Assembly: GCF_001679925.1 (NCBI RefSeq)
Contig: NZ_LYUZ01000147.1
Location: 1-64,000, forward strand
Direction: 5' to 3'
Length of the DNA: 64,000 nt
Source of the DNA: Leisingera sp. JC1
GTDB taxonomy: Bacteria > Pseudomonadota > Alphaproteobacteria > Rhodobacterales > Rhodobacteraceae
The notes below the pieces were generated by a model. The model saw nothing but the letters and a program-made list of their open reading frames with translations, made no database searches and was not told where the DNA came from. Of the stretch, positions 1,762-17,912 are shown piece after piece (position 1 is the stretch's first letter; each line of letters opens with the position of its first letter). The position numbers and the translations under genes were made by a program.

Positions 1762-1787
1762 TGCCTCTGTTTCCTGGCAAAACTGAC

Positions 1788-1812
1788 TGCCCCGGGCGAA
1801 TTGCCCGGGGCA
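1788..1812 (+). terminator. Hairpin after potD
   Basis: Perfect 10-bp inverted repeat TGCCCCGGGC / GCCCGGGGCA with a GAATT loop, 27 bp after the potD stop. There is no clear T-run, so it may be a weak or Rho-assisted terminator or an mRNA 3' stabiliser. Confidence 0.6.
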
Positions 1813-1920
1813 TGAGCCGAAATTTCTGCCTTGAACAACCACTGTGAAAGAGTTTCCCAGACGCTTGGAAAGAGGCCGGAGCAATGTGCGGTCCTGTTTG
1901 CGATTTAAATACGACTTTAC

Positions 1921-1960
1921 AATACCTATTTTTTAATACATGAATGCGGCGTGCATGTAT
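1921..1960 (+). promoter_or_regulatory. Candidate NsrR-like operator and dyad upstream of the truncated haemoglobin
   Basis: The AT-rich stretch at 1921-1941 reads, on the minus strand, ATGTATTAAAAAATAGGTAT, which resembles the NsrR consensus half-site ATGYATT followed by AAAA. A separate dyad, ATACATG (1936-1942) and CATGTAT (1954-1960), overlaps it and reaches the ribosome-binding site GGAGGG at 1961. The match is weaker than at the two sites in front of norS. The functional assignment rests on the NO-related genes downstream. Confidence 0.35.
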
Positions 1961-1971
1961 GGAGGGTTGCC

Positions 1972-2391
1972 ATGAAGGATTCGCCGCACAAGCAGCCTTG
2001 GATATTCGAGGTGTCAGCCGATGAGATTGCCTTGCTTGTAGCCCGTTTTTATTCCCGGGTTCGCGCGGATGCTGTGCTGGGGCCGGTGTTCAATGCCGCG
2101 GTCACCGACTGGCCGGAGCATGAGGCGCGCATTGCTGCCTTCTGGCGCGGGGCGATCCTGCGCGAACCGGGGTATGCAGGCAATCCGATGCAGGTTCATC
2201 TGGCCAATCCGGAGATCCGGCCGGAGCATTTCCCGGTCTGGCTGGCCTTGTTCCGCGACACCGCGGAGCGGGAGCTGAGTCCGGAGACGGCCCAGGCCTT
2301 TGCCGCCTTGGCCGACCGGATCGGCAAGGGGCTGTCCTACGGGCTGGAAAATTTCCAGCGCGAAGCGGATGTGCCGCCGGTGCTTTCGTGA
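1972..2391 (+). CDS. Group III truncated haemoglobin
   Basis: A 139-residue globin of the truncated group III (P) class. The pattern AAFWRGAILREPGYAG, then MQVHLANPEIRPEHFPVWLALF, is characteristic; the His of EHFPVWL is the expected proximal haem ligand. Group III globins are linked to NO and microaerobic growth in bacteria such as Campylobacter, but their exact reaction varies. ATG 1972 is preceded by GGAGGG at 1961-1966. It is the first gene of a same-strand run with a DUF2189 protein and ccoNOQP, with gaps of only 73 and 53 bp. This suggests joint expression and a role in NO or oxygen-limited metabolism. An upstream AT-rich palindromic region may bind NsrR. Confidence 0.85.
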   Translation: MKDSPHKQPWIFEVSADEIALLVARFYSRVRADAVLGPVFNAAVTDWPEHEARIAAFWRGAILREPGYAGNPMQVHLANPEIRPEHFPVWLALFRDTAERELSPETAQAFAALADRIGKGLSYGLENFQREADVPPVLS

Positions 2392-2464
2392 CTTGGATGG
2401 CAGAGGCGGTGTGTGGAGTGTGCTATGCTGGCGGCACAGGCCGCAAGTGCGGGGGATAGCAGAC

Positions 2465-3211
2465 ATGCCTGATCCACTTTACTCCAAGGCCCGGATCATT
2501 GCAGAGCCGCCCGTCCGTGTTGTGCGGCGCTGGCTGGCGGCGGGCTGGGCCGACCTGCGCCGCAATCCCGGATATTCACTGAGTTACGGCGGCGCGCTGG
2601 TGCTGTTGGGCTGGTTGGCGGTCTGGCTGCTGTCCGCCACAGGCACCGGCTGGATGCTCTTGCCGCTGCTGGCGGGTGGGGTGCTGGTGGGGCCGGTGGC
2701 CACGGTTGGCCTTTATGCGGTGGCCCGCGGGCGGCGCGAGGTGGCCTCGAAAGGTCAGATCGCACTGGTGGGCGCGATCCTGATGGTGTTTGCCCTGACC
2801 TGGATCCGGGCCGCGACGGTGCTGTTCGCCATCGTCTATGGCCTCAGGCCATTTGCCGGTTTCGTAGAGACGCTGGTGCTGATGATCAGCACCCCGGCGG
2901 GCTGGATGCTGCTGATTTCCGGGTCCTTGACCGGCGGGCTTTTTGCGGCACTGGGGTTTGCGGTCTCGGCCTTCTCCTTGCCGATGCTGGTGGAGCGGCG
3001 GATCGACGGATTCTCTGCCATGGGGCTGAGCTTCAACGCCGCCACGCATAATTTCCGGCTGTCGGTCTGGTGGGGGGCGGCGATCACCCTGCTGACCGGG
3101 CTGGGAGTGCTGACCGGGCTGCTGGGGCTTGCGGTGATCTTTCCGCTGCTGGGCTATGCGACCTGGCATGCTTATGCGGATCTGTTTCATGGAGGCGGTG
3201 ATGAAAGTTGA
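2465..3211 (+). CDS. DUF2189 integral membrane protein
   Basis: A 248-residue membrane protein with about six hydrophobic segments after a short cytoplasmic N-terminus (VRVVRRWLAAGWADLRRNPGYSLSYG). This layout and the closing FPLLGYATWHAYADLF match the DUF2189 family. The function is not established, but DUF2189 genes are often found beside haem-copper oxidase genes. Here it lies between a truncated haemoglobin and ccoN on the same strand, which fits an accessory role in the cbb3 or NO-responsive respiratory unit. ATG 2465 opens the conserved N-terminus; the open frame extends upstream without support. Confidence 0.8.
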   Translation: MPDPLYSKARIIAEPPVRVVRRWLAAGWADLRRNPGYSLSYGGALVLLGWLAVWLLSATGTGWMLLPLLAGGVLVGPVATVGLYAVARGRREVASKGQIALVGAILMVFALTWIRAATVLFAIVYGLRPFAGFVETLVLMISTPAGWMLLISGSLTGGLFAALGFAVSAFSLPMLVERRIDGFSAMGLSFNAATHNFRLSVWWGAAITLLTGLGVLTGLLGLAVIFPLLGYATWHAYADLFHGGGDES

Positions 3212-3264
3212 CGGCTGGCGCCGGGGAAGCCCGGAGAGATGCCCCATGCTGATGGAGGCCTGTG

Positions 3265-4887
3265 ATGCAGCGTAGAGTTCCGCTCGAAGAAACCGCTATC
3301 CTGTGCGCCCTTTGCCTGGTGCTGCTGGGCGGGCTGGCGATCCTGGGCTGGGGTGTGCCGGTGGCCTATGTTCTGCATGGCTGGCTGATTGCACTGGCGG
3401 CGGGATGGGGCCTTATGTGGATGCTGAACCGGCTGGGCGAAACCCCGGCAAAGGTGCCGCTTGCCTATAACGACCGGGTGATCCGCTTTGGCGTGGTTGC
3501 GGCGCTGATCTGGGCCATCATCGGCTTTGCGGTGGGCGACATCCTGGCCTGGCAACTGGCCTTCCCGGCGCTGAACGGCGATATGGCCTGGACCAACTTC
3601 GGGCGCCTGCGGCCGGTGCATACCTCCGGCGTGATCTTCGGCTTTGGCGGCAACGCGCTGATTGCCACCTCGTTTTATGTGGTGCAGCGGACCTCAAGGG
3701 CACGGCTGGCGAGCGAGACCCTGCCGTGGCTGGTGTTCTGGGGCTATAACCTGTTCCTGGTGCTGGCGGCCTCGGGCTATCCGCTGGGCATCACCCAGTC
3801 CAAGGAATACGCGGAGCCGGAATGGTATGCGGATCTGCTGCTGCTGGTGGTCTGGGTCGGCTATCTGGCGCTGTACCTGAAAACGCTGGCCCGGCGGGCG
3901 GAGCCGCATATCTATGTCGCCAACTGGTATTACCTGGCCTTTATTGTGGTGATTGCGATGCTGCACACGGTGAACAACCTGTCGGTGCCGGTCTCGATCG
4001 CCTACCCCAAGAGCTATTCGCTGTTTGCGGGCACCCAGGATGCGATGACGCAGTGGTGGTACGGGCATAATGCGGTGGGCTTCCTGCTGACCGCCGGCTT
4101 CCTCGGGATGCTCTATTACTTCCTGCCCAAGGCGGTGAACCGGCCGGTCTATTCCTACCGGATGTCGATAGTCGGCTTCTGGGGGATCACCTTCCTGTAC
4201 CTGTGGGCCGGCTCGCACCATCTGCATTACACGGCGCTGCCGGACTGGGTGCAGTACCTGGGCATGACCATGTCGATCATCCTGCTGGTGCCGAGCTGGG
4301 CCTCGGTCTTCAACGGCATCCTGACCATCAACGGCGCCTGGGACAAGGTGCGCACCGACCCGGCAGTGCGGTTCATGATGGTGGCGGTGCTGTTCTACGG
4401 GCTGGCGACGTTTGAGGGGTCCTTCATGGCGATCCGCCCGGTGAATTCGCTGAGCCATTACACTGACTGGACGGTGGGCCATGTGCATGCAGGCGCGTTG
4501 GGCTGGGTTGCCTTCATCACCTTCGGGGCGATGTACAAGATGGTGCCGTGGGTGTGGAAGCGCGAGGGCGTCTATTCCTTGAAGCTGGAGGCCTGGCACT
4601 TCTGGCTCGCCCTGTCCGGCACGCTGATTTACGTCGGCGCAATGTGGAACAGCGGCATTACTCAGTCGCTGATGTGGCAGACCTATGATGCCGATGGCGC
4701 TTTCCTCTACTCCTTCCTCGACAGCGTAGTGGAGATGCACCCCTATTACGCCGCGCGCGCGGTTGGCGGGCTGCTATATCTGATCGGCGGCTGTATCGGT
4801 GCCTACAACATCTGGATGACGGTGAGCGGGCCGAAGAAGGCCCAAACCCGGCAAGCGGGGCCAATCCCCCGGCAGCCTGCGGAGTGA
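3265..4887 (+). CDS. ccoN: cbb3-type cytochrome c oxidase subunit I
   Basis: The 540-residue catalytic subunit of a C-type haem-copper oxidase, an inner-membrane proton-pumping terminal oxidase of high O2 affinity that can also reduce NO slowly. Expected metal ligands are visible in order: low-spin haem His in [15 protein letters not shown], CuB His in [10 protein letters not shown], the His pair in [12 protein letters not shown], and the helix X motif [12 protein letters not shown]. About 12 transmembrane segments are expected. ATG 3265 is preferred over GTG 3262 because GGAGG lies at 3254-3258. It heads ccoN-O-Q-P. No ccoGHIS assembly genes are nearby, so this is probably a second cbb3 copy relying on maturation genes elsewhere. 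Confidence 0.95.
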
Positions 4888-4893
4888 TCAGCC

Positions 4894-5625
4894 ATGAGCA
4901 CACAGCATCAGAAGCTTGAACGGAATTCTATCGGCTTTGCCCTGGCAATCCTGATGGTGGCCTCGATCGGCGGCCTTGTCGAGATCGCGCCGCTGTTCAC
5001 CATCGAGAACATGGTGGAGAAGGTGGAGGGGATGCGCCCCTATACGCCGCTGGAGCTGGCCGGGCGTGACATCTATGTGCGCGAGGGCTGTTATGCCTGC
5101 CACAGCCAGATGATCCGCACCTTGCGGTCCGATGTGGAGCGCTACGGGCACTACAGCCTGGCGGCCGAAAGTATGTATGACCATCCGTTCCAATGGGGTT
5201 CGAAACGCACCGGGCCGGATCTGGCGCGGATCGGCGGCAAGTATTCGGATGCCTGGCACGTTGCGCATCTGGAGGCCCCGCGGGAGTTTGTGGAAGGCTC
5301 GGTGATGCCGGGCTATGCCTTCCTGTCGGACACGCGGCTGGCAACCGGCCATTTGCCCGCGGCACTGAAGGCGCCGAGCCGGGCAGGGGTGCCCTATAGC
5401 AGAGCGCAGATCGAAAACGCAGAGAAGGACGCGGTCTGGCAGGCGGATTTCGAGCAGAACTACGAAAGCGAGCTGCAGGAGAGCTATGGCGCAAAGGTGC
5501 AGGTGCGCGATTTCGACGGTCAGCCCGGGCGGCTGACGGAAATGGATGCGCTGGTCGCCTATCTGCAGATGCTGGGTACGCTTGCCGACCTGGACACGCT
5601 GGACCCGGAGGAGGTGAACCGATGA
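4894..5625 (+). CDS. ccoO: cbb3-type cytochrome c oxidase subunit II (monohaem cytochrome c)
   Basis: A 243-residue protein with one N-terminal membrane anchor (about residues 12-32) and a periplasmic cytochrome c domain. The haem-binding motif CYACH is at about residues 68-72, and the axial Met is probably in EGSVMPGYAFL. It passes electrons between CcoP and CcoN. It starts 6 nt after ccoN and its stop codon overlaps the ccoQ start (ATGA), the usual tight coupling of this operon. Confidence 0.94.
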   Translation: MSTQHQKLERNSIGFALAILMVASIGGLVEIAPLFTIENMVEKVEGMRPYTPLELAGRDIYVREGCYACHSQMIRTLRSDVERYGHYSLAAESMYDHPFQWGSKRTGPDLARIGGKYSDAWHVAHLEAPREFVEGSVMPGYAFLSDTRLATGHLPAALKAPSRAGVPYSRAQIENAEKDAVWQADFEQNYESELQESYGAKVQVRDFDGQPGRLTEMDALVAYLQMLGTLADLDTLDPEEVNR

Positions 5626-5789
5626 CCCATGACGCCGTTCTTGTGTTCTCCAAGACCTGGGGGGCGGTTTACCTGCTGGTGGTGTTCCTGGCGGCGGTGC
5701 TTTGGACCTACTGGCCGTCGCGGCGTCGGATCTACGACGATGCCGCGCAATCCCCGCTGGACGGGCGGGAGGACCAGCCATGGCAGTGA
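5622..5789 (+). CDS. ccoQ: cbb3 oxidase small subunit CcoQ-like
   Basis: A 55-residue protein with one membrane helix (about TWGAVYLLVVFLAAVLWTYW) followed by a charged tail (PSRRRIYDDAAQ). This matches CcoQ/FixQ in size, topology and position between ccoO and ccoP. CcoQ stabilises the oxidase complex. The start overlaps the ccoO stop by 4 nt and the end overlaps the ccoP start by 10 nt. The RRRIYDDAA-type tail after the helix is the most family-specific part. Confidence 0.88.
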   Translation: MTHDAVLVFSKTWGAVYLLVVFLAAVLWTYWPSRRRIYDDAAQSPLDGREDQPWQ

Positions 5790-6652
5790 AGGAAAAGGAC
5801 CCGGTTTCGGGCACTGAGCTGACCGGCCACGAGTGGGACGGGATCAAGGAAATGGACACGCCTGTGCCCTGGGCCTCCCGCTGGGCGCTGTGGATCAGTA
5901 TTGCGGTATCGGTGCTGTTCTGGCTGCTGTACCCGTCGTTTCCGCTGGTCACCGGCTATGCCAAGGGGCTACTGGGCTATTCCACGCGGGCGGAGGTGGC
6001 GGCTGCGGTGGATCAGGCGGAGGCGGAACGGGCGCAGGCCTTTGCACCGTTCCAGTCCGCGGATATTGCAGCACTTGCGGCGGACCCGGCGCTTGAGGCG
6101 CGCTATGGCCAGGCGATTGGCAAACTTTATGCCGACAACTGCGCCGCCTGCCACACGGCGGAGCTGACGGGTCAGACCGGATTCCCCGATTTGACAGACG
6201 GGCATTGGCTGTGGTCCGGCAGCCCGGAGGAGATTGAGTACAGCATCCGTTTTGGCATCAACGCGGCCCATGACGACACCCGCAGCGCCCAGATGCTGGC
6301 CTTTGGCGCCGACGGGATGCTGGACAAGGCGCAGGTCAAGGAGGCAGTGGAATTTGTTCTGTCGCTTTCGGGGCAGGCGCATGACGCGGATTTGGCTGAA
6401 GCGGGCAGGATGGTGTTTGAGGACAACTGCGCTGCCTGCCACGGCGATGATGGGCGCGGCGGGCTGGAGAACGGCGCGCCGGATCTTGGGGATGGCCAGT
6501 GGATCTATGGCGGCAGCCGTGACGACGTCTACCGCAGTGTCTACTATGGCCGAATGGGCGTCATGCCCGCATGGGAGGGCAGGTTGAGCGATGCCCAAAT
6601 CCGTATGCTGACACTTTATGTGCTGTGGAATGGCAATGATGCCGCCGACTGA
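5780..6652 (+). CDS. ccoP: cbb3-type cytochrome c oxidase subunit III (dihaem cytochrome c)
   Basis: A 290-residue membrane-anchored dihaem cytochrome c that accepts electrons for the cbb3 oxidase. The N-terminal TGHEWDGIKEMDTPVPWA segment is a CcoP signature. One or two membrane segments follow (about residues 34-60), then two cytochrome domains with CAACHTAEL and CAACHGDDGRG haem motifs. ATG 5780 lies within the end of ccoQ. A longer in-frame extension to 5702 overlaps ccoQ fully and is not supported. Confidence 0.94.
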   Translation: MAVKEKDPVSGTELTGHEWDGIKEMDTPVPWASRWALWISIAVSVLFWLLYPSFPLVTGYAKGLLGYSTRAEVAAAVDQAEAERAQAFAPFQSADIAALAADPALEARYGQAIGKLYADNCAACHTAELTGQTGFPDLTDGHWLWSGSPEEIEYSIRFGINAAHDDTRSAQMLAFGADGMLDKAQVKEAVEFVLSLSGQAHDADLAEAGRMVFEDNCAACHGDDGRGGLENGAPDLGDGQWIYGGSRDDVYRSVYYGRMGVMPAWEGRLSDAQIRMLTLYVLWNGNDAAD

Positions 6653-6818
6653 GAATAAAACGCCAGAGGAAAACCCGCGTTTCCGCAGGTCAATGTACCT
6701 GCTGATACTGGCGCTGCTGACAGGCTACGCCGGGTTCAAGGCCTGGCATCTGTCGGTGGCGTTTGAAGCCTGGAACGGGCAGGTGCTGGAGGGTACGGTT
6801 TCCGGCGCTGCCAAGTGA
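6636..6818 (+). CDS. Small single-pass membrane protein at the end of ccoNOQP
   Basis: A 60-residue open frame overlapping the ccoP 3' end. It has a proline- and charge-rich N-terminus, one hydrophobic helix (MYLLILALLTGYAGFKAW) and a short tail ending EGTVSGAAK. It does not look like CcoS or CcoH. Position and topology suggest an extra small subunit or assembly factor of this cbb3 oxidase, which is inference. Start choice among three close ATGs (6630, 6636, 6639) is uncertain. It converges with nsrR. Confidence 0.55.
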   Translation: MMPPTENKTPEENPRFRRSMYLLILALLTGYAGFKAWHLSVAFEAWNGQVLEGTVSGAAK

Positions 6819-6859
6819 GGAGCGGCTGAAGCGGCCGAGGCCGGGCATGCGGTCGAAGC

Positions 6860-7315
6860 CTATTTCAAGGCTTGTTCCGCCTCCAACGCCCGGATCAGGT
6901 TCCTCATGCCGCGGTTGCCCACCAGCACGTCCTGCAAGGTCTTGCTGTCGAGCGCGGCAAAGAACGCCTCCTGGGCCTCGTTGAGAATCGGCAGCAAGCC
7001 GCAGGCTGGGGTCATGACGCAGCAGCCTCCGTCCTCTTTCATGCACTCCACCAGCGGCGTGCCGTGTTCGGATTTCCGCAGCAGCCCGCCGATGGAGATC
7101 GCCTCTGGCGACACGGCCAGGCGCATGCCGCCGTTACGGCCGCGGACTGATTCCACATAACCCTCGTGGGTCAGCCACTGGGAAATCTTGGCCAGGTGGT
7201 TGAAAGGCAACTGCTGCATCCCGGCAATTTCGCGAGTGGTCATCAGCCCGTCCTCGTGGGTGGCGAGGTGGATCAGGATGCGCAGGGCGTAATCGGAAAA
7301 CTTGGTGATCTGCAT
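6860..7315 (-). CDS. nsrR: NO-sensing Rrf2-family repressor NsrR
   Basis: A 151-residue Rrf2-family regulator. The N-terminal winged helix begins MQITKFSDYALRILIHLA; Asp8 and a C-terminal cysteine cluster (C91, C98/C99, C105, in VECMKEDGGCCVMTPACGL) match the [4Fe-4S] ligands of NsrR. Nitrosylation of the cluster releases the protein from DNA. NsrR is preferred over IscR or RirA because of the cysteine spacing and the ACGL..L.EA.EAFF.ALD block. The gene is divergent from norS; the shared 108-bp region holds two near-identical 23-bp operator-like sites, implying control of norS and probably of itself. An extra adjacent cysteine (C98 and C99) is unusual. Confidence 0.9.
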   Translation of the reverse strand: MQITKFSDYALRILIHLATHEDGLMTTREIAGMQQLPFNHLAKISQWLTHEGYVESVRGRNGGMRLAVSPEAISIGGLLRKSEHGTPLVECMKEDGGCCVMTPACGLLPILNEAQEAFFAALDSKTLQDVLVGNRGMRNLIRALEAEQALK

Positions 7316-7334
7316 AAGCGTTCATCCCATAATT

Positions 7335-7357
7335 AATATGCATTGAAAAGACGTATT
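7335..7357 (+). promoter_or_regulatory. NsrR operator-like site 1
   Basis: A 23-bp site beginning AATATGCATTGAAAA and ending GACGTATT. It differs from site 2 (7386-7408) at only 4 of 23 positions and fits the NsrR consensus, which is an ATGCATT half-site, AAAA, then an inverted half-site. It lies immediately upstream of the -35 element of the norS promoter. Confidence 0.7.
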
Positions 7358-7360
7358 TTG

Positions 7361-7388
7361 TTGACACGCATTTGCGGTGTCCAATAAT
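7361..7388 (+). promoter_or_regulatory. Predicted sigma-70 promoter of norSY
   Basis: Consensus TTGACA at 7361-7366 and AATAAT at 7383-7388, spaced 16 bp, 35 bp before the norS start codon. Operator-like site 2 overlaps the -10 element, which fits repression by blocking RNA polymerase. Confidence 0.65.
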
Positions 7389-7408
7389 AGGCATTCAAAA
7401 TACTTATT
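7386..7408 (+). promoter_or_regulatory. NsrR operator-like site 2
   Basis: A 23-bp site starting AATAGGCATTCAAAA and ending TACTTATT, 51 bp downstream of site 1 (start to start, about five helical turns). It overlaps the predicted -10 box and transcription start of norS. The ribosome-binding site GGAGG follows at 7413-7417. Confidence 0.7.
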
Positions 7409-7423
7409 AAATGGAGGCAGCGC

Positions 7424-7933
7424 ATGCAGCCAGTTGTTCTATTAATCTCGCTGATCCTGATGGCGGCGCTGTCAGCGGTCTTTGTTCTGGCGGTGAGGGC
7501 TGCGCGCGACCCGGCGCCGGGTCCGGGCGCCAACGCAAAACGCACCGGGCTGATCTGGGCGATGACAATTGCGGGTGTGATTGTCTCCGTTGCCTCGCTG
7601 CGGGAGTGGCCGCACGCGCTGGCCAGCACCGGTGATGCGCTGGAGGTGAATGTCAGCGGCGGCCAGTGGTGGTGGGACATCGACACCACGGAAATCCCGG
7701 CTGGCAAGCCGGTCAATTTCAACGTCACCACCGAGGACGTGACCCACGGGATGGGCATCTATGACAGCAGCCTTACGCTGCTGACCCAGGTGCAGGCGAT
7801 CCCCGGCTACACCACGCAGATCACCTATACGTTCGAGGAACCGGGCAGCTACCAGGTCCTGTGCATGGAGTTCTGCGGGGTGGCGCATCATGACATGGTC
7901 AATGAATTCGAAGTTGTAGCGGCGGAGGAGTAA
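7424..7933 (+). CDS. norS: sNOR-type nitric oxide reductase, CuA subunit
   Basis: A 169-residue CoxB-like subunit II with two N-terminal membrane helices (about residues 4-25 and 42-60) and a periplasmic cupredoxin domain. The CuA ligands are complete: H108, C147, E149, C151, H155 and M158, in CMEFCGVAHHDM. It would accept electrons from a cytochrome c and pass them to NorY. It is shorter than typical CoxB. Together with the next three genes it reproduces the norSY-senC-orf1 order known from Nitrosomonas. GGAGG lies 6 nt before the ATG. Expression is probably NsrR-controlled. Confidence 0.85.
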   Translation: MQPVVLLISLILMAALSAVFVLAVRAARDPAPGPGANAKRTGLIWAMTIAGVIVSVASLREWPHALASTGDALEVNVSGGQWWWDIDTTEIPAGKPVNFNVTTEDVTHGMGIYDSSLTLLTQVQAIPGYTTQITYTFEEPGSYQVLCMEFCGVAHHDMVNEFEVVAAEE

Positions 7934-9394
7934 ATGAGCACTGCATCCGAAAATTATATCCCCGGGCACGCGGCGGCTGCGCCGCAAGCGGGGGCGGTCA
8001 AACTGACAATGATCCTGTCCGGTGCAGTGTTTGCGCTGATGATGGTCTTCGGCCTGATCATGCGCGCGGCGCAGGGCCAGTGGATTGAGCTGGACGCGGC
8101 GCTGTTCTACCAGTTGCTGACCGCACATGGCGCGGGCATGGTGGGTACTGCGGCGCTGTCGGGGGCGGCCATCATGTGGTACTTCGGCGGCCGCCATCTG
8201 GTGCTGACAGGAGGCATCTTCTGGGCCTTCCTGGGGCTGTTTCTGCTGGGTGTGGTGCTGATTCTCGGTGCCATCTTCATCGGCGGCTACGGCGGTGCCT
8301 GGACTTTCCTTTTTCCGCTGCCGGCTCTGTCCGGCGGTGCTTGGGAGGCAGGCGCGGCGGCGGCCTTTATGCTGGGCTATACCGCCATCGGCGTCGGCTT
8401 CCTGCTCTATTACCTGGAGTTGGGTCGCCGGATCCATACCCGTTACGGCAGTCTGGCGCGGGCGCTGGGCTGGAACCTGATCCTTGGGCGTGAGGACAAT
8501 GATCCGCCGCCGCCCGCCATCGTGGCGGCCGCGGCAGTGACCATCTTCAACTCGATCGGCATCATCCTGGGCGCGGCGGTGCTGGCGGCAAGCCTGGTGC
8601 ATCTGCTGGTGCCGGGGTTCGAGGTCGATGCACTCCTTGCAAAGAACCTGATCTATTTCTTCGGTCATGTGTTCATCAACGCGTCGATCTACATGGCGGT
8701 GACGGCGGTCTATGAGATCCTGCCGGAATACACCGGCAAACCCTGGAAATCGAACCGGCTGTTTGCGATCGCCTGGAATGCGGTGCTGATCTTTGTGATG
8801 GCGGTTTACTGGCACCATCTGTTGCAAGACGTGGTGATGCCGCCCTGGATGCTGGTGGTGGGGCAGCTGGTCTCCTACTTCAGCGGCATCCCTCTGATTG
8901 CGGTCACCGCCTTTTCAACCTTCCTTTATGTGCGCGGCTCCAACATGACCTGGGACCTGGCGTCGGCGTTGCTGGTGCTGTCGGTTGCGGGCTGGTCGGT
9001 GGGATCGATCCCGGCCTCCATCGACGGGATGATCAGCGTTAACAAGGTGATGCACAACACCATGTGGGTGCCGGGGCATTTCCACACCTACCTGCTGCTG
9101 GGTGAGGTGGCGATGGCTTTTGGTTTCATGGCCTGGCTGGTGCGCGGCAAGACGATTGCCAGGATGAACGGTCTGGACCGGGCGGGCTTTGCCGTCTACC
9201 TGGCGGGGGCTGCCGGTTTTGTGACGGTGTTCCTGTTCTCCGGCGCCGCCTCAATCCCGCGCCGCTGGGCGGTGCATTACGAGGAGTGGCTGACCCATGA
9301 CCGCATCGGCACCTTGTTCAGCGTGCTGGTGGTGCTGGGGACGCTGATCTTTGTCCTGCGCTTTGTAGCGCGGCTGGGGCGGAGCGAAGGCTGA
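7934..9394 (+). CDS. norY: sNOR-type haem-copper nitric oxide reductase, catalytic subunit
   Basis: A 486-residue haem-copper superfamily subunit I with about 12 membrane helices. Metal ligands are visible: low-spin haem H65 (LTAHGAGM), CuB H245 (YFFGHVFIN), CuB H294-H295 (YWHHLLQD), and helix X H382/H384 (VPGHFHTYLL). The position four residues after H245, which is the cross-linked Tyr in A- and B-type oxidases, is N249 here. The paired CuA subunit and the downstream senC and orf1 identify the sNOR family, which is thought to reduce NO to N2O. It directly follows norS with no gap. General annotation pipelines may call it cytochrome c oxidase; O2 reduction cannot be excluded from sequence alone. 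Confidence 0.85.
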   Translation: MSTASENYIPGHAAAAPQAGAVKLTMILSGAVFALMMVFGLIMRAAQGQWIELDAALFYQLLTAHGAGMVGTAALSGAAIMWYFGGRHLVLTGGIFWAFLGLFLLGVVLILGAIFIGGYGGAWTFLFPLPALSGGAWEAGAAAAFMLGYTAIGVGFLLYYLELGRRIHTRYGSLARALGWNLILGREDNDPPPPAIVAAAAVTIFNSIGIILGAAVLAASLVHLLVPGFEVDALLAKNLIYFFGHVFINASIYMAVTAVYEILPEYTGKPWKSNRLFAIAWNAVLIFVMAVYWHHLLQDVVMPPWMLVVGQLVSYFSGIPLIAVTAFSTFLYVRGSNMTWDLASALLVLSVAGWSVGSIPASIDGMISVNKVMHNTMWVPGHFHTYLLLGEVAMAFGFMAWLVRGKTIARMNGLDRAGFAVYLAGAAGFVTVFLFSGAASIPRRWAVHYEEWLTHDRIGTLFSVLVVLGTLIFVLRFVARLGRSEG

Positions 9395-9993
9395 TGCTGG
9401 CCCGCGCTCTCCCCTCGGTTCTCGCCGCCGTGGCCGGCGGCGGGATCCTGTGGCAGGTGACTGACGGGGCGCAGGCCTTCACCAGCGAAGCGGCGCGGCG
9501 GCTGGATGTGGTGCAGTCGCCCCGCCAAGTGCCCGAGGTGCTGCTGGAGGATATGGTCGGCCGCCAGGTGCCATTGCTGCCGCAAGCGGGCGAGGTTGTG
9601 CTGGTCGAGTTCATCTACACGGTCTGCGGCGATATCTGCCAGATTTCTGCCGCGGACTTTGCCGAAATCCGCGACCGACTGCGGGCGCAAGGGGCGCGGG
9701 TCCGGCTGCTGTCGGTGAGTTTCGATCCTGAGCGCGACACGCCGGAGCAGATGGCCATCTACGGTGATGCCCATGAGGCCGACGGTGTGATGTGGACCGT
9801 CGCGCGGCCCAGGCAGAAGGATCTCCCGGGCCTGCTGAAGCTGTTTGATGTGACGGTTATCCCGGATGAATGGGGCGGTTTTCAGCACAATGCAGCGATC
9901 CATGTGATCTCGGGCGACGGAAGTTTCTCTGCCGTCTATGACACCGACGCGGTGGAGGCAGTGCTGGCCCATCTCGACGGAGGGCAGCCATGA
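9394..9993 (+). CDS. senC: SCO1/SenC-family copper chaperone
   Basis: A 199-residue thioredoxin-fold protein with an N-terminal membrane anchor or signal. It has the SCO copper motif as VCGDIC (C78 and C82) and a candidate third ligand H165 in FQHNAAIHV. SCO proteins load copper into CuA sites, here most likely into NorS. It overlaps the norY stop by one base (TGATG). The middle block LLSVSFDPERDTPEQM is typical of the family. Confidence 0.88.
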   Translation: MLARALPSVLAAVAGGGILWQVTDGAQAFTSEAARRLDVVQSPRQVPEVLLEDMVGRQVPLLPQAGEVVLVEFIYTVCGDICQISAADFAEIRDRLRAQGARVRLLSVSFDPERDTPEQMAIYGDAHEADGVMWTVARPRQKDLPGLLKLFDVTVIPDEWGGFQHNAAIHVISGDGSFSAVYDTDAVEAVLAHLDGGQP

Positions 9994-10550
9994 GGATGAT
10001 CTGCCTGGGCCTGCTGGCCATGGCGGAAGCTGTGGCCCTGCGCGAGGCGGCGGCGGCCAGCCCGGTTCAGCATGTGCTGGTGCAGATGCCGCTGCTGGTG
10101 CTGGCAGGCGTGCTTCTGGGTTGGAACCTGCGCGTGCGGCGCGATTGGGCGGTTCCGCTGTTGCTGACGGCGCTGACGGCATTTCTCTTCTGGATGCTGC
10201 CGCGCAGTGTGGACTGGGCGCTGACACCTGCAGGAGAGGCCGCCAAAAACCTGAGTCTGCCGTTGCTGCTTGGCGTGCCGCTGCGCTTGAGCTGGCCCTG
10301 GCTGGGTCCGGTCCTGCGCGGCTTTCTCAAGGCCAATGCGCTGTCGATGCTGGGCGTTCTGGGATTCCTCTATACCCATGCCCCGGTGCGGATCTGCAAT
10401 TCCTACCTGGTGTCTGCTCAACAGGAGCTGGGGTTTGCCTTTCTCTATCTTGCCGCGGCGCTGGCCTGTCTTTGGGCTATCCCGGTTTTGTTCGGGCATC
10501 CGAAGTGCGGGTCGTTTGGCACCGCAGGATGTTCCAGATGCGGAGTGTGA
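9990..10550 (+). CDS. orf1-type membrane protein of the norSY-senC cluster
   Basis: A 186-residue membrane protein with about five hydrophobic segments, overlapping senC by 4 nt (ATGA). Its position matches orf1 of the norSY-senC-orf1 clusters, whose function is unknown; a role in assembly of the reductase is inference. The tail ends HPKCGSFGTAGCSRCGV, with three Cys in 14 residues, which could bind copper or iron. A further Cys lies in VRICNSY. Nothing in the sequence indicates catalysis. Confidence 0.7.
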   Translation: MRMICLGLLAMAEAVALREAAAASPVQHVLVQMPLLVLAGVLLGWNLRVRRDWAVPLLLTALTAFLFWMLPRSVDWALTPAGEAAKNLSLPLLLGVPLRLSWPWLGPVLRGFLKANALSMLGVLGFLYTHAPVRICNSYLVSAQQELGFAFLYLAAALACLWAIPVLFGHPKCGSFGTAGCSRCGV

Positions 10551-10556
10551 CGTGAC

Positions 10557-11372
10557 ATGACCCATGCTGAAACAGTTCTGAGTTTCGCGCAGCTGGCGCA
10601 GAAGAAAAGCCGTCACTTGCGCGCTGATCCGCTGGCCTTTCTGATCCTGGCACTGAAGGCCGGGGCGTTTGTCGGGGCCGGAATCCTGCTGATCTTCTCG
10701 GTGGGGCAGGGCATCGAAGGGGCGTTCCGCCCGATCGTCATGGGGGCAAGTTTCGGTATCGCGCTGACGCTGGTGGTATTTGCCGGTGCCGAGCTGTTCA
10801 CCGGCCACACCATGTACATGACGCAGGGGCTTCTGACCGGGCAAACCGGCTTCTATGACCTGCTGCGCTGCTGGGCGGCCAGCTGGGGCGGCAACCTGGC
10901 CGGGGCGCTGCTGCTGGCGGCCTTGTTCACTGCGGGCGGCGGCGGCCTCATTCTGGGCGCAGGCGAGGACGCATTGCTGCACAAGGTGGCTGCCAAGAAG
11001 ATGCATGGTCCTGCGCTGCAGCTGTTTGCCAAGGCGGTGCTGTGCAACTGGCTGGTGTGCCTGGCCTTGTGGTGCTCGGCACGGGCCAAGGACGACGTGA
11101 GCAAGTGCATCATCATCTTTTGGTGCCTTTATGCCTTTATCGCGGCCGGTTTCGAGCACAGCATCGCCAATATGACGGTGTTTTCGGTGGCACTGATGTC
11201 GGACCACCCGGACAGCATCTCGATCACGGGGGCGGCCTATAACCTGATCTTTGTCACCCTGGGCAATACCTTTGCCGGGGCTGTGATCATGGGCTGGGGT
11301 TACTGGCGCGCAGCCTCCCGTCCGGAGGTCGAAGCCGCTGTTAGGTGCGGCTCTGCTTCAAGCCCAGGCTGA
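10557..11372 (+). CDS. Formate/nitrite transporter (FNT) family protein
   Basis: A 271-residue inner-membrane channel of the FNT (FocA/NirC) family with six expected helices. Typical blocks include AGAELFTGHTMYM (first re-entrant loop), KAVLCNWLVCLALWCSARAKDD and AGFEHSIANMTVFS. FNT proteins pass formate, nitrite or related monovalent anions. Seven base pairs separate it from orf1, so it is probably cotranscribed with norSY. Nitrite is the likelier substrate in this context: NO arises from nitrite reduction, and NO dioxygenation or oxidation returns nitrogen oxyanions. Substrate assignment is inference. Confidence 0.85.
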   Translation: MTHAETVLSFAQLAQKKSRHLRADPLAFLILALKAGAFVGAGILLIFSVGQGIEGAFRPIVMGASFGIALTLVVFAGAELFTGHTMYMTQGLLTGQTGFYDLLRCWAASWGGNLAGALLLAALFTAGGGGLILGAGEDALLHKVAAKKMHGPALQLFAKAVLCNWLVCLALWCSARAKDDVSKCIIIFWCLYAFIAAGFEHSIANMTVFSVALMSDHPDSISITGAAYNLIFVTLGNTFAGAVIMGWGYWRAASRPEVEAAVRCGSASSPG

Positions 11373-11538
11373 ATGGGTGAAAGGTAATAACTCTAAGCGT
11401 GTACCGGCGTGAATACGGGAGCCTCTCAGGCCTTTTCCAGTGGTGGAAAGCGGCGGAGAACGGGCTGGAACTGTGAGGTAATGCAATTTCAAAAAGCGCC
11501 CTGAATGACGCTCGTTGGTGCGGATCTTTTGGGGAAAG

Positions 11539-11613
11539 TGGCAGCCCGTAGGGGAATCGAACCCCTCTTTCCAGGTTGAAAACCTGGCGTCCTAACCGAT
11601 AGACGAACGGGCC
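11539..11613 (-). tRNA. tRNA-Glu (anticodon TTC)
   Basis: On the minus strand the sequence begins GGCCCGTTCGTCTATCGG. The anticodon stem CCAGG/CCTGG encloses TTTTCAA (anticodon TTC), followed by GGTTCGATTCC in the T arm and acceptor ACGGGCT, G73 and an encoded CCA. The cloverleaf is complete at 75 nt including CCA. It lies 100 bp downstream of recJ on the same strand. Confidence 0.97.
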
Positions 11614-11717
11614 ACTCTGTGCGTGAGCGGGTATTTAGTTGTAACCGCCGGAACCCGCAAGAGAAAAAATACGCCTTTGTGAAATTTCTTATCCACAGGC
11701 GGCAAGCCATTGATAAC

Positions 11718-13457
11718 TCAGGTTTCTGCGGCGTCCTCCAGGCGCAGCTGCGGGCTTTGGCGGCCGCCCCATGTGTTGATTTCCAGCCGTCCGGCAAAAT
11801 GGAAGCGCGCGCCGCCATGCTCCAGCAGCCGCGGGCCCAGAGCCGTGTCGAAGGCGCCAAAGCAGATTGCGTCAACACCGCCGCCCATGCCGTCGCTGAG
11901 GGAGAGCTTCAGGTGGCTTTCGCCCACCTTCTTGGCGAACCTCACCTGCAGATCCGGCAGCGCATAGCGCGGTGCAGGGGCGCCGGCGCCAAACGGGCCA
12001 GCCTGTTCGATCTGTTCAATCAGATTCACGCTGGCAGCCCCCGGCATCAGGGCGCCGTCCAGTTTCAGGTCGGCGGGGCCGCCTTCGCCCGCACCTTGTT
12101 TGGCCAATAATTCCGTCAGCCGCGCCATCGCAGGTTCCAGCTTATCGCGCATCACGGTGAGGCCCGCCGCCATCTTGTGGCCGCCGCCCTTGACCAGCAG
12201 GCCCTCGGCGGCCAGCCGCTGGATTGAGGCGCCGAGGTCGACACCCGAGACCGACCGGCCAGAGCCCTTGCCCTCTTCGCCGTCGAAGCCGATCACGATG
12301 GCCGGGCGGTTGGCGCTTTCTTTCAGGCGGGAGGCAACGATGCCAACCACGCCCGGGTGCCAGCCCTCGCCCGCGGCCCAGACCAGCGGGGCCTCCAGGC
12401 CGCGTTCCTCCGCCTGTTCCAGCGCGGCGGCGCGCACGGCGTTTTCGATGTCGCGGCGTTCTGTGTTCAGCTCATCCAGCCGTTCCGCCAGGGCAGCGGC
12501 TTCATGCGGATTGTCTGTCGACAGCAAACGCGCGCCAAGGTCGGCCTTGCCGATCCGCCCGCCGGCATTGACCCGCGGGCCCAGCAGGAATCCGAGGTGA
12601 TAGGTGGAAGGTGCCGAATCCATGCGGGAGACGTCGGAGAGCGCCACCAGTCCGGGACGCCTGCGGGCGCTCATCACTTTCAGACCCTGGCGCACCAGCG
12701 CCCGGTTGGCGCCGATCAGAGGCGCCACATCCGCCACTGTGGCCAGCGCCACCAGGTCCAGCAGGGCCATCAGATCCGGCCCCTTAGCAGCAGCTTCGCG
12801 CAGCTGGCGGCCGGCCTCGACCAGCATCAGGAACACCACGCCCGCTGCACAGAAATAGCCGAGGTCGCCGCTTTCGTCCTGACGGTTCGGGTTCACCACC
12901 GCCACGCAGTCCGGCAGCGTTTCGCTGCCCAAGTGGTGGTCCAGCACGATCACGTCGGCGCCTTTCGCAGCGGCAATCGGTTCGTGGCTCAGCGTGCCGC
13001 AATCGACACAGATGATCAGGTCATGGGCGGCGGCAAGCTCCTGCATGGCCGGAACATTGGGGCCATAGCCCTCGTCGATGCGGTCGGGAATATAAAGCGT
13101 TGCCTCCAATCCCATTTGCCGCAGCCAGACAATCAGCAGCGCGGCCGAGCTGCCGCCATCAACGTCATAGTCGGCAAAGACCGCAATCCGCTGTTTGCGC
13201 CGCACCGCTTCAAGGAAGCGGGCAGCGGCAGCCTCCATGTCCTTCATCTCGCGCGGGTCGGGCAGCAGCTCTTTCAGCTTTGGCTCAAGAAACCCCTTGG
13301 CCTCCATCGCCGGCACGCCGCGCCGGGCCAGAACCTGGCAGACAGAGCGGGGCAGGCCGGTCTGCTGCGCCATCATCTCGGACGCGCGGTCCACCTCGAC
13401 CCCGGGGCCGACCCAGCGGCGGCCGGTCAGGGACTGCTCAACACCCAAAAAGCTCAT
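11718..13457 (-). CDS. recJ: Single-stranded-DNA-specific exonuclease RecJ
   Basis: A 579-residue 5'-3' ssDNA exonuclease of recombination and mismatch repair. The DHH phosphoesterase motifs are present: FADYDVDGGSSAAL (motif I), VDCGTLS, and DHHLGSETLP (the DHH motif). The DHHA1 domain follows with KGGGHKMAAGL, then an OB-fold C-terminus. ATG 13457 is chosen because GAGGG precedes it at correct spacing; an upstream ATG at 13490 would add 11 residues without a ribosome-binding site. It lies downstream of glpX and hom on the same strand, an order common in Rhodobacteraceae. Confidence 0.95.
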   Translation of the reverse strand: MSFLGVEQSLTGRRWVGPGVEVDRASEMMAQQTGLPRSVCQVLARRGVPAMEAKGFLEPKLKELLPDPREMKDMEAAAARFLEAVRRKQRIAVFADYDVDGGSSAALLIVWLRQMGLEATLYIPDRIDEGYGPNVPAMQELAAAHDLIICVDCGTLSHEPIAAAKGADVIVLDHHLGSETLPDCVAVVNPNRQDESGDLGYFCAAGVVFLMLVEAGRQLREAAAKGPDLMALLDLVALATVADVAPLIGANRALVRQGLKVMSARRRPGLVALSDVSRMDSAPSTYHLGFLLGPRVNAGGRIGKADLGARLLSTDNPHEAAALAERLDELNTERRDIENAVRAAALEQAEERGLEAPLVWAAGEGWHPGVVGIVASRLKESANRPAIVIGFDGEEGKGSGRSVSGVDLGASIQRLAAEGLLVKGGGHKMAAGLTVMRDKLEPAMARLTELLAKQGAGEGGPADLKLDGALMPGAASVNLIEQIEQAGPFGAGAPAPRYALPDLQVRFAKKVGESHLKLSLSDGMGGGVDAICFGAFDTALGPRLLEHGGARFHFAGRLEINTWGGRQSPQLRLEDAAET

Positions 13458-13500
13458 GCGTCTGCCCTCATGTGCAAAGGCCGGACCCAAGCGGATCCGG

Positions 13501-13545
13501 CCCTTTCATCTTTCCTGAAATACTCCCGCCGGAGGCAGCGGCGCA
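13501..13545 (+). repeat. Short interspersed repeat, copy A
   Basis: Contains CATCTTTCCTGAAATACTCC, then CGCCGGAGGC. Related copies occur at about 28962-28996 (inverted) and 48396-48437. All three lie in short intergenic gaps. The CTCC..GGAG part can form a small hairpin. It lies between glpX and recJ. Confidence 0.6.
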
Positions 13546-13570
13546 AGCCGCTCCCCGGCCGCTGGCCAGT

Positions 13571-14557
13571 TTACTTTTGGTGCGGTTCCAGCGGCGTGCG
13601 GTAGGACATGCGGCGCACGGAACCGGTTTTCGAACGCATCAGCAGGGTGGTGGTTTCGACCCAGCCCGGAGTGCGCTTGATCGACGGCAGCAGCGAGCCG
13701 CCGGTCACGCCGGTGGCGGCAAAGATCACGTCCTGGGTGACCATTTCGTCGCGGGCATAGATCCGGTCCAGGTCGGTGATGCCGGCCTTGGCGGCGCGGG
13801 CTTTCTCGTCATCATTGCGGAACAGCAGGCGGCCGAAGATCTGGCCGCCCATGCACTTCAGTGCCGCCGCTGCCAGCACACCCTCAGGTGCACCGCCCTG
13901 GCCCATATACATGTCGATGCCGGTCACATCGCTTTCGGCGCAATGCATGACCCCTGCCACGTCGCCGTCGGTGATCAGGCGGATGGCCGCGCCGGTTTCA
14001 CGCACTTCGGCAATCATCGCTTCGTGGCGCGGGCGCTCCAGGATGCAGACGGTGATGTCGGACGGGGCGCAGCCTTTGGCCTTGGCCAGCGCCTCGACAC
14101 GCTCGCGCGGCGACATGTCCAGCGAGACGACGCCTTCGGCGTAACCCGGGCCGATTGCCAGCTTGTCCATATAGGTGTCCGGCGCGTGCAGCATGGAGCC
14201 GCGCGGGCCCATGGCGATCACGGTCAGCGCATTCGGCATGTCCTTGGCGGTCAGGGTGGTGCCTTCCAGCGGGTCCAGCGCGATGTCGACGCCGGGGCCG
14301 TTGCCGGTGCCGACTTCCTCACCGATATACAGCATCGGGGCCTCGTCGCGCTCGCCTTCGCCGATCACCACCACGCCGGCGATGTCCAGCAGGTTCAGCT
14401 GCTCGCGCATGGCGTTGACGGCGGCCTGGTCGGCGGCTTTCTCGTCACCGCGGCCGATCAGCGAGGCAGAGGCCAGCGCGGCCTGTTCGGCAACGCGGGC
14501 GAGGCCCAGCGACAGCATACGGTCATGAAAGGGCGCGTCAGAGGTGTTCGATGTCAT
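13571..14557 (-). CDS. glpX: Class II fructose-1,6-bisphosphatase GlpX
   Basis: A 328-residue lithium-sensitive phosphatase acting in gluconeogenesis (fructose-1,6-bisphosphate to fructose-6-phosphate). GlpX signatures are visible: IGRGDEKAADQAAVNAMR, VVIGEGERDEAPMLYIGEEVG, the metal-binding DPLEGTTLTA, and GQGGAPEGVLAAAALKCMGG. Length is normal for the family. It sits between hom and recJ on the minus strand. The start ATG at 14555-14557 opens directly into the conserved N-terminus. Confidence 0.95.
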   Translation of the reverse strand: MTSNTSDAPFHDRMLSLGLARVAEQAALASASLIGRGDEKAADQAAVNAMREQLNLLDIAGVVVIGEGERDEAPMLYIGEEVGTGNGPGVDIALDPLEGTTLTAKDMPNALTVIAMGPRGSMLHAPDTYMDKLAIGPGYAEGVVSLDMSPRERVEALAKAKGCAPSDITVCILERPRHEAMIAEVRETGAAIRLITDGDVAGVMHCAESDVTGIDMYMGQGGAPEGVLAAAALKCMGGQIFGRLLFRNDDEKARAAKAGITDLDRIYARDEMVTQDVIFAATGVTGGSLLPSIKRTPGWVETTTLLMRSKTGSVRRMSYRTPLEPHQK

Positions 14558-14713
14558 ACCGGAAATCCTGTCTCAACGGGTCAGATGTGAATGGGCGTTC
14601 CAAGCCGAATAGCGCGGGGCGGGGCAGGCTCGCAAGAGGCGATAGGGGGCACGGCGGCAGGAAATCCCAGCCGCAGCGCGTAAATAGGCTCAAAATTGCC
14701 CCTTTGGCGCAGA

Positions 14714-16000
<1,287 letters not shown>

Positions 16001-16115
16001 GGCTGGAGGTCCTTTGTCCGAAACTTGTCCGCCCCGCCTTAGCGGGTTCGGCGCAGGCGTGCAACGCCGCCGCGAAACAAGGCCCTTCAGGGCAGGCAGG
16101 AATGCCGCGGAGAGG

Positions 16116-16370
16116 TCAGAGTTCGGCGTTTTTGACGGCTTCTGCGCGGCGCTTCAGGCGGTTGCTGCGGGCGTCGAGCTCCTCCTGCAGGTCCTGGCTG
16201 GCCTGCTGCGGCGGATCCAGCGGTTCCAACGCGTCATCCAGCGGCAGGAGGTCGGGATATTCCGCGCCGCGCAGGTCCGGGGTCAGCCGGTCCTCCAGTT
16301 CAGGCACCCGGGTGCAGGCGGCGGCTGCCGTCACGGCCAGAAAAATTGCGATCTGTGTCCAAAGCTGCAT
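16116..16370 (-). CDS. Small predicted lipoprotein
   Basis: An 84-residue protein with a short signal peptide (MQLWTQIAIFLAVTAAAAC) ending in a lipobox-like TAAAAC, so Cys19 is the likely lipidated residue. The mature part is acidic, then becomes a probable helix (QQASQDLQEELDARSNRLKR). No family is recognised. ATG 16370 is chosen over an upstream start at 16496 because it gives a proper lipoprotein signal. It may be cotranscribed with hom, but the two functions show no obvious link. Confidence 0.65.
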   Translation of the reverse strand: MQLWTQIAIFLAVTAAAACTRVPELEDRLTPDLRGAEYPDLLPLDDALEPLDPPQQASQDLQEELDARSNRLKRRAEAVKNAEL

Positions 16371-16508
16371 TGCCCAAACCCCATGCTCTGCTGGGCCGGT
16401 TGTAGGAGGTCCGGCGGGCTGGCACAATTGAATTCCCGCAGCGTTTGCGGCATGTTCCTGCAGCCGCGGGCTGATAGAGGCAAGGGGCGGCGGCATTCGC
16501 TCTTTTTT

Positions 16509-16524
16509 CTGAACATCTGTTCAG
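16509..16524 (+). promoter_or_regulatory. Putative TetR-family operator
   Basis: Perfect dyad CTGAACA-TC-TGTTCAG, 13 bp before the start codon of the TetR-family gene. Dyads of this kind at this position usually serve autoregulation. Confidence 0.5.
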
Positions 16525-16537
16525 TTATTGTCGGCCC

Positions 16538-17125
16538 ATGGCACGCACCCAAGGTTCCCACTCCGATATCACCGGCCCCCGCATCCGCGAGGCGGCCCTG
16601 CGGCTGTTTGCGCAGCATGGTTATGCCGCGGTTTCGATGCGCCAGATCGCCAAGGAGGTCGGGGTGCAGGCGGGGGCGCTGTACAATTACACGCCCGACA
16701 AGCAGAGCCTGCTGTTCAATCTGATGGCAGGCCACATGGAAGAGCTGCAGGCAGCCTGGGATGCAGTGCCGCAGTCGGACAGCGCGCTGGAACGGCTGCG
16801 TGCCTTCACCGGCTTTCACATCCGTTTTCACCTGGAGCGCCCGGATGCAGTGTTCATCGCCTATATGGAGCTGCGCAATCTGACGGAGGAGAATTTCACC
16901 GTCATCGAATCGCTGCGCCGGGACTACGAGAACGGCGTAGAAGGGATCCTGAAAAAAGGGGTCGAGCAGGGCGTGTTCGCCATTCCCGACACCAAGATCG
17001 CGACGCTGGCGGTGATTGCGATGCTGAACGGGGTCAACACCTGGTACCGCTCAGAAGGGCGGCTGTCGCTGGACGAGGTGGAGCGGGTCTATTGGGGAAT
17101 GGTGCAGAAGGCGGTCAGCACATGA
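16538..17125 (+). CDS. TetR/AcrR-family transcriptional regulator
   Basis: A 195-residue repressor. The N-terminal helix-turn-helix spans about residues 16-60: IREAALRLFAQHGYAAVSMRQIAKEVGVQAGALYNYTPDKQSLL is the classic TetR pattern. The ligand-binding C-terminus (about 80-195) shows no motif that identifies the effector. The gene overlaps the next GNAT gene by 4 nt (ATGA) and carries a perfect dyad just upstream, so it probably regulates its own small operon. The target pathway is unknown. Confidence 0.88.
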   Translation: MARTQGSHSDITGPRIREAALRLFAQHGYAAVSMRQIAKEVGVQAGALYNYTPDKQSLLFNLMAGHMEELQAAWDAVPQSDSALERLRAFTGFHIRFHLERPDAVFIAYMELRNLTEENFTVIESLRRDYENGVEGILKKGVEQGVFAIPDTKIATLAVIAMLNGVNTWYRSEGRLSLDEVERVYWGMVQKAVST

Positions 17126-17601: not shown

Positions 17602-17609
17602 CGGCCTGA

Positions 17610-17912
17610 TCAGCTCAGCAGTCCCAGCATGTCGTAGTGGTCGATCTGACGGCTCAGCACCATCGGGTCCTCTTCGGGCAGAACATGCGGCTGTTCCCAA
17701 TCCTCGCCGGCAAAGGCTTGCAGCGCTTCGATGCTTTCCCAGACCATCACTACACAGAATGTGGCGGGGGATTCGGGTCGCGGAAGCCCTGCGGTGACAG
17801 AGACAAGCCCTGGTTGGCGGCGCACATGCGGCACAGCGGTATCGGTCAGAAAATTCTTGAATTCTTGGACCTTGTCGTCGCGAACGGTGGCACGGAACAC
17901 CCGTATGATCAT
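17610..17912 (-). CDS. Antibiotic-biosynthesis-monooxygenase (ABM) domain protein
   Basis: A 100-residue dimeric alpha/beta-barrel-type protein. MIIRVFRATVRDDKVQEFKNFL, then QPGLVSVTAGLP and CVVMVWESIEALQAFAG, match ABM-domain proteins, small oxidases or stress proteins with varied substrates. The start at 17912 gives the usual MIIRVF opening; 17924 is the alternative, and neither has an ideally spaced ribosome-binding site. Specific function is unknown. It converges with the GNAT gene across an 8-bp gap. Confidence 0.75.
   Translation of the reverse strand: MIIRVFRATVRDDKVQEFKNFLTDTAVPHVRRQPGLVSVTAGLPRPESPATFCVVMVWESIEALQAFAGEDWEQPHVLPEEDPMVLSRQIDHYDMLGLLS

Follow-up and report, generated by a model that had tools for sequence, protein, structure and literature searches.

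Organisation of the operon

The 64,000-nucleotide stretch of contig NZ_LYUZ01000147.1 from Leisingera sp. JC1 analysed here (the window) contains a predicted operon for an sNOR-type nitric oxide (NO) reductase, composed of genes for a CuA-bearing subunit II (NorS), a haem-copper subunit I (NorY), a copper chaperone of the SCO/SenC type and a membrane protein (ORF1). The gene of an FNT channel follows, a gene for an Rrf2-type regulator diverges upstream, and a palindrome of the NsrR type lies between the latter and norS. These features are the following:

7424..7933, + strand: norS, CuA subunit II, 169 amino acids (Pfam COX2)
7934..9394, + strand: norY, sNOR-type haem-copper subunit I, 486 amino acids (Pfam COX1)
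9394..9993, + strand: SCO/SenC copper chaperone, 199 amino acids (Pfam SCO1-SenC, PF02630)
9990..10550, + strand: orf1, helical membrane protein, 186 amino acids (no Pfam match at E<=0.001)
10557..11372, + strand: fnt, NirC-like FNT channel, 271 amino acids (Pfam Form_Nir_trans, PF01226)
6860..7315, - strand: rrf2, NsrR-like regulator, divergent from norS, 151 amino acids (Pfam Rrf2, 114.6 bits)
7391..7403, + strand: NsrR-type palindrome GCATTCAAAATAC, separated by 20 bases from the start of norS

The five open reading frames (ORFs) from norS to fnt are found where the original prediction had placed them, tightly packed on the + strand. The first four, of 510, 1461, 600 and 561 bp, touch (stop to start) or overlap, and a gap of 6 bases precedes fnt. 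Their order, norS-norY-senC-orf1, is the one that the prediction had linked to the sNOR family, and it recurs in the relatives. These were sampled as the best 80 of 524 matches, a selection that leans towards Alphaproteobacteria, and were complemented with the loci L107 and L108; gene-order counts refer to the resulting 82 loci, while residue counts refer to 81 relatives and leave out L108 (Thermomicrobium, 351 bits). Merging of near-copies at 85% identity reduces 81 loci to 55 groups. NorS is encoded directly upstream of NorY in 81 of the 82 loci, according to the gap rule of the script used for neighbours, and SCO and ORF1 are found downstream in 80 and 78, respectively. The script works on ORFs delimited from stop to stop, and its stricter count of loci with SCO as the next gene (61/82) is an underestimate to which the presence count is preferred.

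Metal ligands and family placement

The complete set of CuA ligands proposed for NorS (H108, C147, C151, H155 and M158) is invariant across an alignment of 18 sequences, and the CxxxCxxxHxxM motif is present in the NorS of 81 of the 82 loci. The exception is locus L071, from HTCC2083, whose norS (5429-5692 of that locus) appears interrupted or frame-shifted. The histidine ligands of NorY are equally complete, as H245, H294, H295, H374, H382 and H384 are conserved in all 81 relatives and H65 in 80, the remaining one showing a gap.

At the position of the cross-linked tyrosine, column 249, the predicted asparagine is found in 80 of the 81 relatives (X in the other) as well as in Thermomicrobium. 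At this column, tyrosine is present in all nine A- and B-type references (five B and four A, the latter including a Halorussus protein placed with the A type by the tree), glutamate in the five c/qNOR references, glutamine in three proteins encoded on Thermus and Defluviimonas plasmids, and glycine in both C-type references. These residues fit the active-site table published in PMC8756737, which, in the part of that source consulted, assigns Y to oxygen reductases, E to c/qNOR, N to sNOR and Q to eNOR. The same part of the table also assigns N to CuANor (PMC8756737), so asparagine alone cannot distinguish sNOR from bNOR. The AlphaFold2 model of NorY (predicted local distance difference test score, pLDDT, 80.6) reaches query-normalised template modelling scores of 0.70-0.81 against the 50 solved subunit I chains listed.

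The glutamine-type proteins of two Thermus thermophilus plasmids (L115:1339-3024 and L116:2339-4021) carry lysine at column 384, the second histidine of HxH in all other references aligned, and are adjoined by an Rrf2 gene, in L116 together with a DUF542 gene. The third, from a Defluviimonas plasmid (L122:1291-3021), is eNOR-like by residue and lies near cyoE and SCO genes.

Phylogeny had been set beforehand as the refutation test of the prediction, and NorY does not fall inside the A- or B-type oxidases. In a tree of 43 proteins (LG+C20+F+G4), containing 22 NorY relatives picked by hand from the 81, three of them from Nitrosomonas, the window NorY, these relatives and the protein of Thermomicrobium roseum form one branch with 100/100 support, separate from five B-type, four A-type, two C-type, five c/qNOR and three glutamine-type references. 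The glutamine-type trio (eNOR-like by residue) thus falls outside the NorY branch, and the scope of the tree is that of these references, without bNOR, gNOR or nNOR sequences. Within the branch, Thermomicrobium is the sister of the rest, with 33% identity to the window NorY, and the Nitrosomonas proteins group with the latter at 51-53% identity (three loci). Since this tree does not settle how A, B and sNOR branch relative to one another, derivation from B-type enzymes is not claimed. Altogether, membership of the operon in the sNOR family is well supported by gene order, diagnostic residues and phylogeny. A B-type (ba3) oxygen reductase is rejected by the lack of tyrosine at column 249 and of any branching with ba3 enzymes, and a cNOR identity for NorSY by the lack of glutamate at this column and of a haem c subunit.

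Compared with known systems, the window shares with the sNOR of Nitrosomonas and Nitrosococcus (NorSY-SenC-orf1) the gene order, the CuA subunit and the asparagine, and differs from it in the cbb3 and haemoglobin-like genes found upstream. The bNOR (CuANOR) of Bacillus azotoformans, as described in part of PMC3475470, is also similar in its CuA subunit, its asparagine and its linked SenC and membrane protein genes, but its subunit I gene measures 1707 bp, against 1461 in the window; the 'type II' cluster given in the same part of that source (519, 1482, 606 and 582 bp) is nearer in size to the window genes. Finally, cNOR (NorCB) is an NO reductase of the same superfamily and is encoded in the same genome, but a haem c subunit replaces CuA and glutamate occupies the column of N249.

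Predicted regulation by an NsrR-like repressor

An Rrf2 gene is found in 46 of the 82 loci, in 39 of them upstream and divergent, which corresponds to 32 of the 55 groups. The regions between rrf2 and norS were searched with GYATTTNAAATRC, a motif of NsrR sites. The published NsrR motif, gATGyAT-N5-ATrCATc in the part of PMC1274295 consulted, holds the same half-sites. With at most one mismatch, the palindrome is present in 23 of these 39 regions, against 0.2 expected from dinucleotide shuffles; 12 of the 39 loci are near-copies of one roseobacter group, and by groups without near-copies the count is 11 of 26. In the window, the site at 7391-7403 is the only match with up to one mismatch in the 64 kb, where 0.24 are expected and 23 of 100 shuffles contain at least one. 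A single match in 64 kb is therefore not rare, and the significance of the palindrome rests on its position.

The 250 bases that precede the haemoglobin-like gene described below contain no NsrR-type site with up to one mismatch, either in the window or in the four retrieved relatives that have this gene (L107, L132, L133 and L134), and the claim of NsrR control is therefore restricted to norS. Boxes of the FNR/DNR type with at most one mismatch were not found near the operon, and at the cNOR genes of the host the only match has two mismatches, as expected by chance. Elsewhere, at 1290-1303 of locus L016, a box similar to FNR/DNR sites (one mismatch, 0.07 expected) precedes a NirK match by about 200 bases. 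The link between NsrR and sNOR is not new, as it is already in print through Nitrosococcus oceani, where NsrR (Noc2967) lies two locus tags from the SenC of sNOR (Noc2969), according to the part of PMC3772326 consulted.

The linked FNT channel

Among solved structures, the best relative of the FNT protein is NirC (4fc4, 231.8 bits), compared with 196.2 bits for the next-best FNT and 71.9 for FocA. Its scores miss the curated cut-offs for both NirC (261.6 against 293 bits) and FNT (219.8 against 232.3), for which reason the gene is termed NirC-like only. When matches below 100 bits (L083, L087 and L092) are scored as absent, an FNT gene accompanies NorY in 47 of the 82 loci (29 of the 55 groups), downstream and co-directional in 41. 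These loci include Nitrosomonas, where the gene is on the opposite strand (L101, L103 and L106) and not co-directional as in the window, and Thermomicrobium, where subunit II, subunit I and FNT are encoded side by side. As the host genome holds only two FNT genes in 5.19 Mb, a linkage of this frequency is presumably not due to chance. It is unlikely that the channel conducts formate or hydrosulfide and stands beside sNOR incidentally: the scores under the curated cut-offs leave room for such a substrate, but both the closest solved relative and the recurrent linkage speak against it. Nitrite transport by the NirC-like channel is thus plausible.

In two relatives (L035:8618-9623 and L044:6204-7145) the FNT gene appears interrupted or frame-shifted. 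In L029 (9981-10382) and in Ruegeria pomeroyi (L107:15443-15808) it is followed by a gene for a small cytochrome c, c550-like and under the model cut-off. The two cytochromes are 64% identical, similar ORFs occur in 7 of the 55 groups, and the protein could act as electron donor. Searches confined to open-licence papers brought up none on the linkage of FNT and sNOR or on the roseobacter block described below.

SCO and ORF1

The cysteine-rich tail pointed out in ORF1 is truly present in the window copy but is not conserved in the family: among the 78 relatives that have ORF1, the last 45 residues contain no cysteine in 37 and a single one in 22, which rules out the tail as the hallmark of a copper chaperone. 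The conserved stretches resemble 'FWMLPR..D.A' and 'R.CN.YL'. ORF1 is modelled confidently by AlphaFold2 as a helical protein (pLDDT 91.2), and a fold search of the model against the PDB gave no match at E<=0.001. Similarity to DUF1404 is weak, detected at E<=1 in 5 of 20 members (best 4.8e-6), the window copy not among them. Homology to CtaG is unsupported, with profile comparison probabilities of 0.85% and 0.09% against one assembly protein each from Thermomicrobium and Methylobacterium, respectively, the latter protein being incomplete. From its linkage to SCO, ORF1 is probably an assembly factor.

The surrounding block

The operon closes a block of about 9.5 kb, from a haemoglobin-like gene to fnt, whose remaining genes, together with the tRNA gene at its border, are the following:

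1972..2391, + strand: truncated-haemoglobin-like gene, group III, first gene of the block, 61% identical to the Ruegeria pomeroyi protein annotated as such
2465..3211, + strand: DUF2189 membrane protein (PF09955, 67.1 bits), start uncertain
3262..4887, + strand: ccoN of a cbb3 oxidase (TIGR00780, 664.5 bits)
4894..5625, + strand: ccoO (TIGR00781, 314.2 bits)
5622..5789, + strand: ccoQ (FixQ, 64.8 bits)
5780..6652, + strand: ccoP (Cytochrome_CBB3 and FixP_N), start assumed at ATG 5780
6630..6819, + strand: small ORF of 62 amino acids overlapping the end of ccoP, no Pfam match
11539..11613, - strand: tRNA-Glu(ttc) bordering the block (ARAGORN)

By itself, the haemoglobin-like product matches no Pfam or NCBIfam model. 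The corresponding cluster of Ruegeria pomeroyi DSS-3 (SPO_RS20795 to SPO_RS20740) shows the same gene order from haemoglobin to FNT, with a NorY 87% identical and, likewise, a short hypothetical gene after ccoP; it differs in lying on a megaplasmid and in the cytochrome c gene that follows it. Across the sample, CcoN is encoded near NorY in 20 of the 82 loci (9 of the 55 groups), and relatives of NorB, NorC and NorQ in none of the 55 groups. The clustering of other neighbours yielded ten clusters present in at least four groups; none of the nine scanned with Pfam names an NO enzyme, and two of these nine, one of them the haemoglobin-like gene, have no Pfam match.

Positions 1-20000 of the window were compared by blastn with eight stretches of seven places in six genomes and a second tRNA-Glu site. 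Collinearity between the window and the carrier G011 extends from 248 to 14104. In the non-carrier G014, the potCD match (ending at 1865) and the tRNA-Glu/recJ match (beginning at 11419) are separated by 446 bp, against about 9.55 kb in the window, so that one of the three non-carriers examined lacks the block at the corresponding site; in the other two, G005 and G008, the tRNA-Glu/recJ side alone was matched, potCD remaining unmatched in the fetched stretch. The block is the sole matching part in the carriers G003 (about 1906-11340) and G017 (2045-11318), and hence sits elsewhere in those genomes. In G018 the match is limited to 6342-13906 of the window, and the cbb3 part is therefore not adjacent to sNOR in that genome. 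A tandem pair of tRNA-Glu genes precedes recJ in G005 and G008, and a single one in G014; the host genome contains a second tRNA-Glu copy on another contig (C13). The block thus appears to have been gained or lost among roseobacters.

NO reduction genes in the host and its relatives

The suggestion that this roseobacter uses sNOR and not the usual cNorB does not hold, as the same genome encodes a canonical NorB operon on contig C96, which also rules out that sNOR replaces cNOR. This NorB, preceded by a haem c protein and followed by an AAA ATPase, was identified by the tree, its glutamate and annotated plasmid relatives, and NorC (the haem c protein) and NorQ (the AAA ATPase) were named by eye; no NCBIfam model names any of the three. 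NirK, NosZ and NapA score above their cut-offs, and by gene content the host is a complete denitrifier with two predicted NO reductases. Five COX1-family genes are over the cut-off: an A-type gene (C99), C-type genes on C136 and in the window (ccoN), cNorB and norY, typed by the tree except for ccoN, which was typed by TIGR00780.

Counting the host, sNOR is carried by 10 of 21 genomes of the genus, 6 of 248 in the family sample and 6 of 398 in the phylum sample, and a scan of viral contigs found no relative. In the genus, cNorB is present in 9 of the 10 carriers (as a fragment in G015) and in 9 of the 11 non-carriers (as a fragment in G007), and NirK is above the cut-off in 9 and 7, respectively; no association of sNOR with either is claimed. 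The genome G009 carries sNOR with no cNorB match and no NirK above the cut-off. Silicibacter is, presumably, the former genus name of Ruegeria pomeroyi. Silicibacter is listed among the holders of sNOR in the part of PMC8756737 consulted, so the occurrence of the family in this clade is already published.

Proposed role and alternatives

The reading that we favour, with a probability of about 0.7, is that the sNOR operon is controlled by an NsrR-like repressor and provides a second, NO-induced NO reductase that would act beside cNOR and convert NO to N2O. NO would free the repressor from the predicted site at 7391-7403, and SCO, probably together with ORF1, would assist copper loading, as family and linkage suggest. 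Electrons from a c-type cytochrome would enter NorS at CuA and pass to NorY, whose haem/CuB site, lacking the cross-linked tyrosine, would reduce NO to N2O by the chemistry presumed for the family. Nitrite may cross the membrane through the NirC-like channel and would then be handled jointly with NO, in a block that also holds the cbb3 oxidase and the haemoglobin-like gene.

Several observations weigh against this reading or parts of it. Regarding placement, the support of the NorY branch falls to 90/98 when Thermomicrobium is left out, and the tree program warned that long branches meet (Thermomicrobium with the side of the A group, and one qNOR). Regarding regulation, the best NCBIfam model of the Rrf2 protein is NsrR at 104.4 bits, under its cut-off of 182 and with RirA close at 95.0, so the product is termed NsrR-like only; Rrf2 is absent from 30 of the 82 loci with room upstream (6 more are cut off), the best site has two mismatches in 5 of the 39 regions and three to five in 11, and 15 of the 26 groups have no palindrome with up to one mismatch. 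As for the channel, FNT is absent from 29 of the 82 loci with room downstream (6 more are cut off), and its substrate is assigned by similarity only. In addition, the part of PMC6967387 consulted argues for a high-affinity O2 role of the Nitrosomonas europaea sNOR and cites only indirect evidence of NO reduction, in Nitrococcus.

A narrower form of the favoured reading, compatible with it and about evenly balanced, is that the operon mainly protects oxic or microoxic cells from NO, leaving denitrification to cNOR. The NsrR-like control, the haemoglobin-like gene of the block and the presence of cNorB in most genus carriers agree with this role, but cNorB is about equally common in non-carriers, and a role in respiration and with nitrite would agree just as well with the entry of electrons at CuA and the FNT linkage. 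Genome G009 fits either.

It is improbable, by contrast, that the enzyme works chiefly as a terminal oxidase with high affinity for O2 at low oxygen and reduces NO as a side reaction. Such a role would agree with the induction under O2 limitation and the B-type affinity of the Nitrosomonas europaea sNOR (PMC6967387, in part), and with the adjoining ccoNOQP, a low-oxygen oxidase. However, the asparagine is nearly invariant where all A- and B-type references keep tyrosine, the NsrR-type palindrome recurs next to norS, ccoN is near in a minority of loci, and the operon has no FNR/DNR box nearby within one mismatch.

Beyond the NO-induced reductase itself, a more tentative and rather doubtful proposal sees sNOR, a NirC-type nitrite channel and a repressor of the NsrR type as an ancient functional unit in which nitrite movement is coupled to NO clearance. 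In roseobacters, this unit would have been combined with cbb3 oxidase and haemoglobin genes in a transferable block, enabling an aerobe to change its terminal acceptor when NO is sensed.

The debate in print on sNOR as an NO reductase or an oxidase continues (PMC6967387, in part), and the four NOR families named as biochemically characterised in the consulted part of PMC11388526 do not include it. Annotation can mask its presence, as with the R. pomeroyi copy, labelled 'cbb3-type cytochrome c oxidase subunit I'. Among roseobacters, Leisingera and Ruegeria allow the alternatives of NO reductase and oxidase to be addressed directly, and G009, if its draft is complete at this point, would offer a natural background without the usual cNOR.

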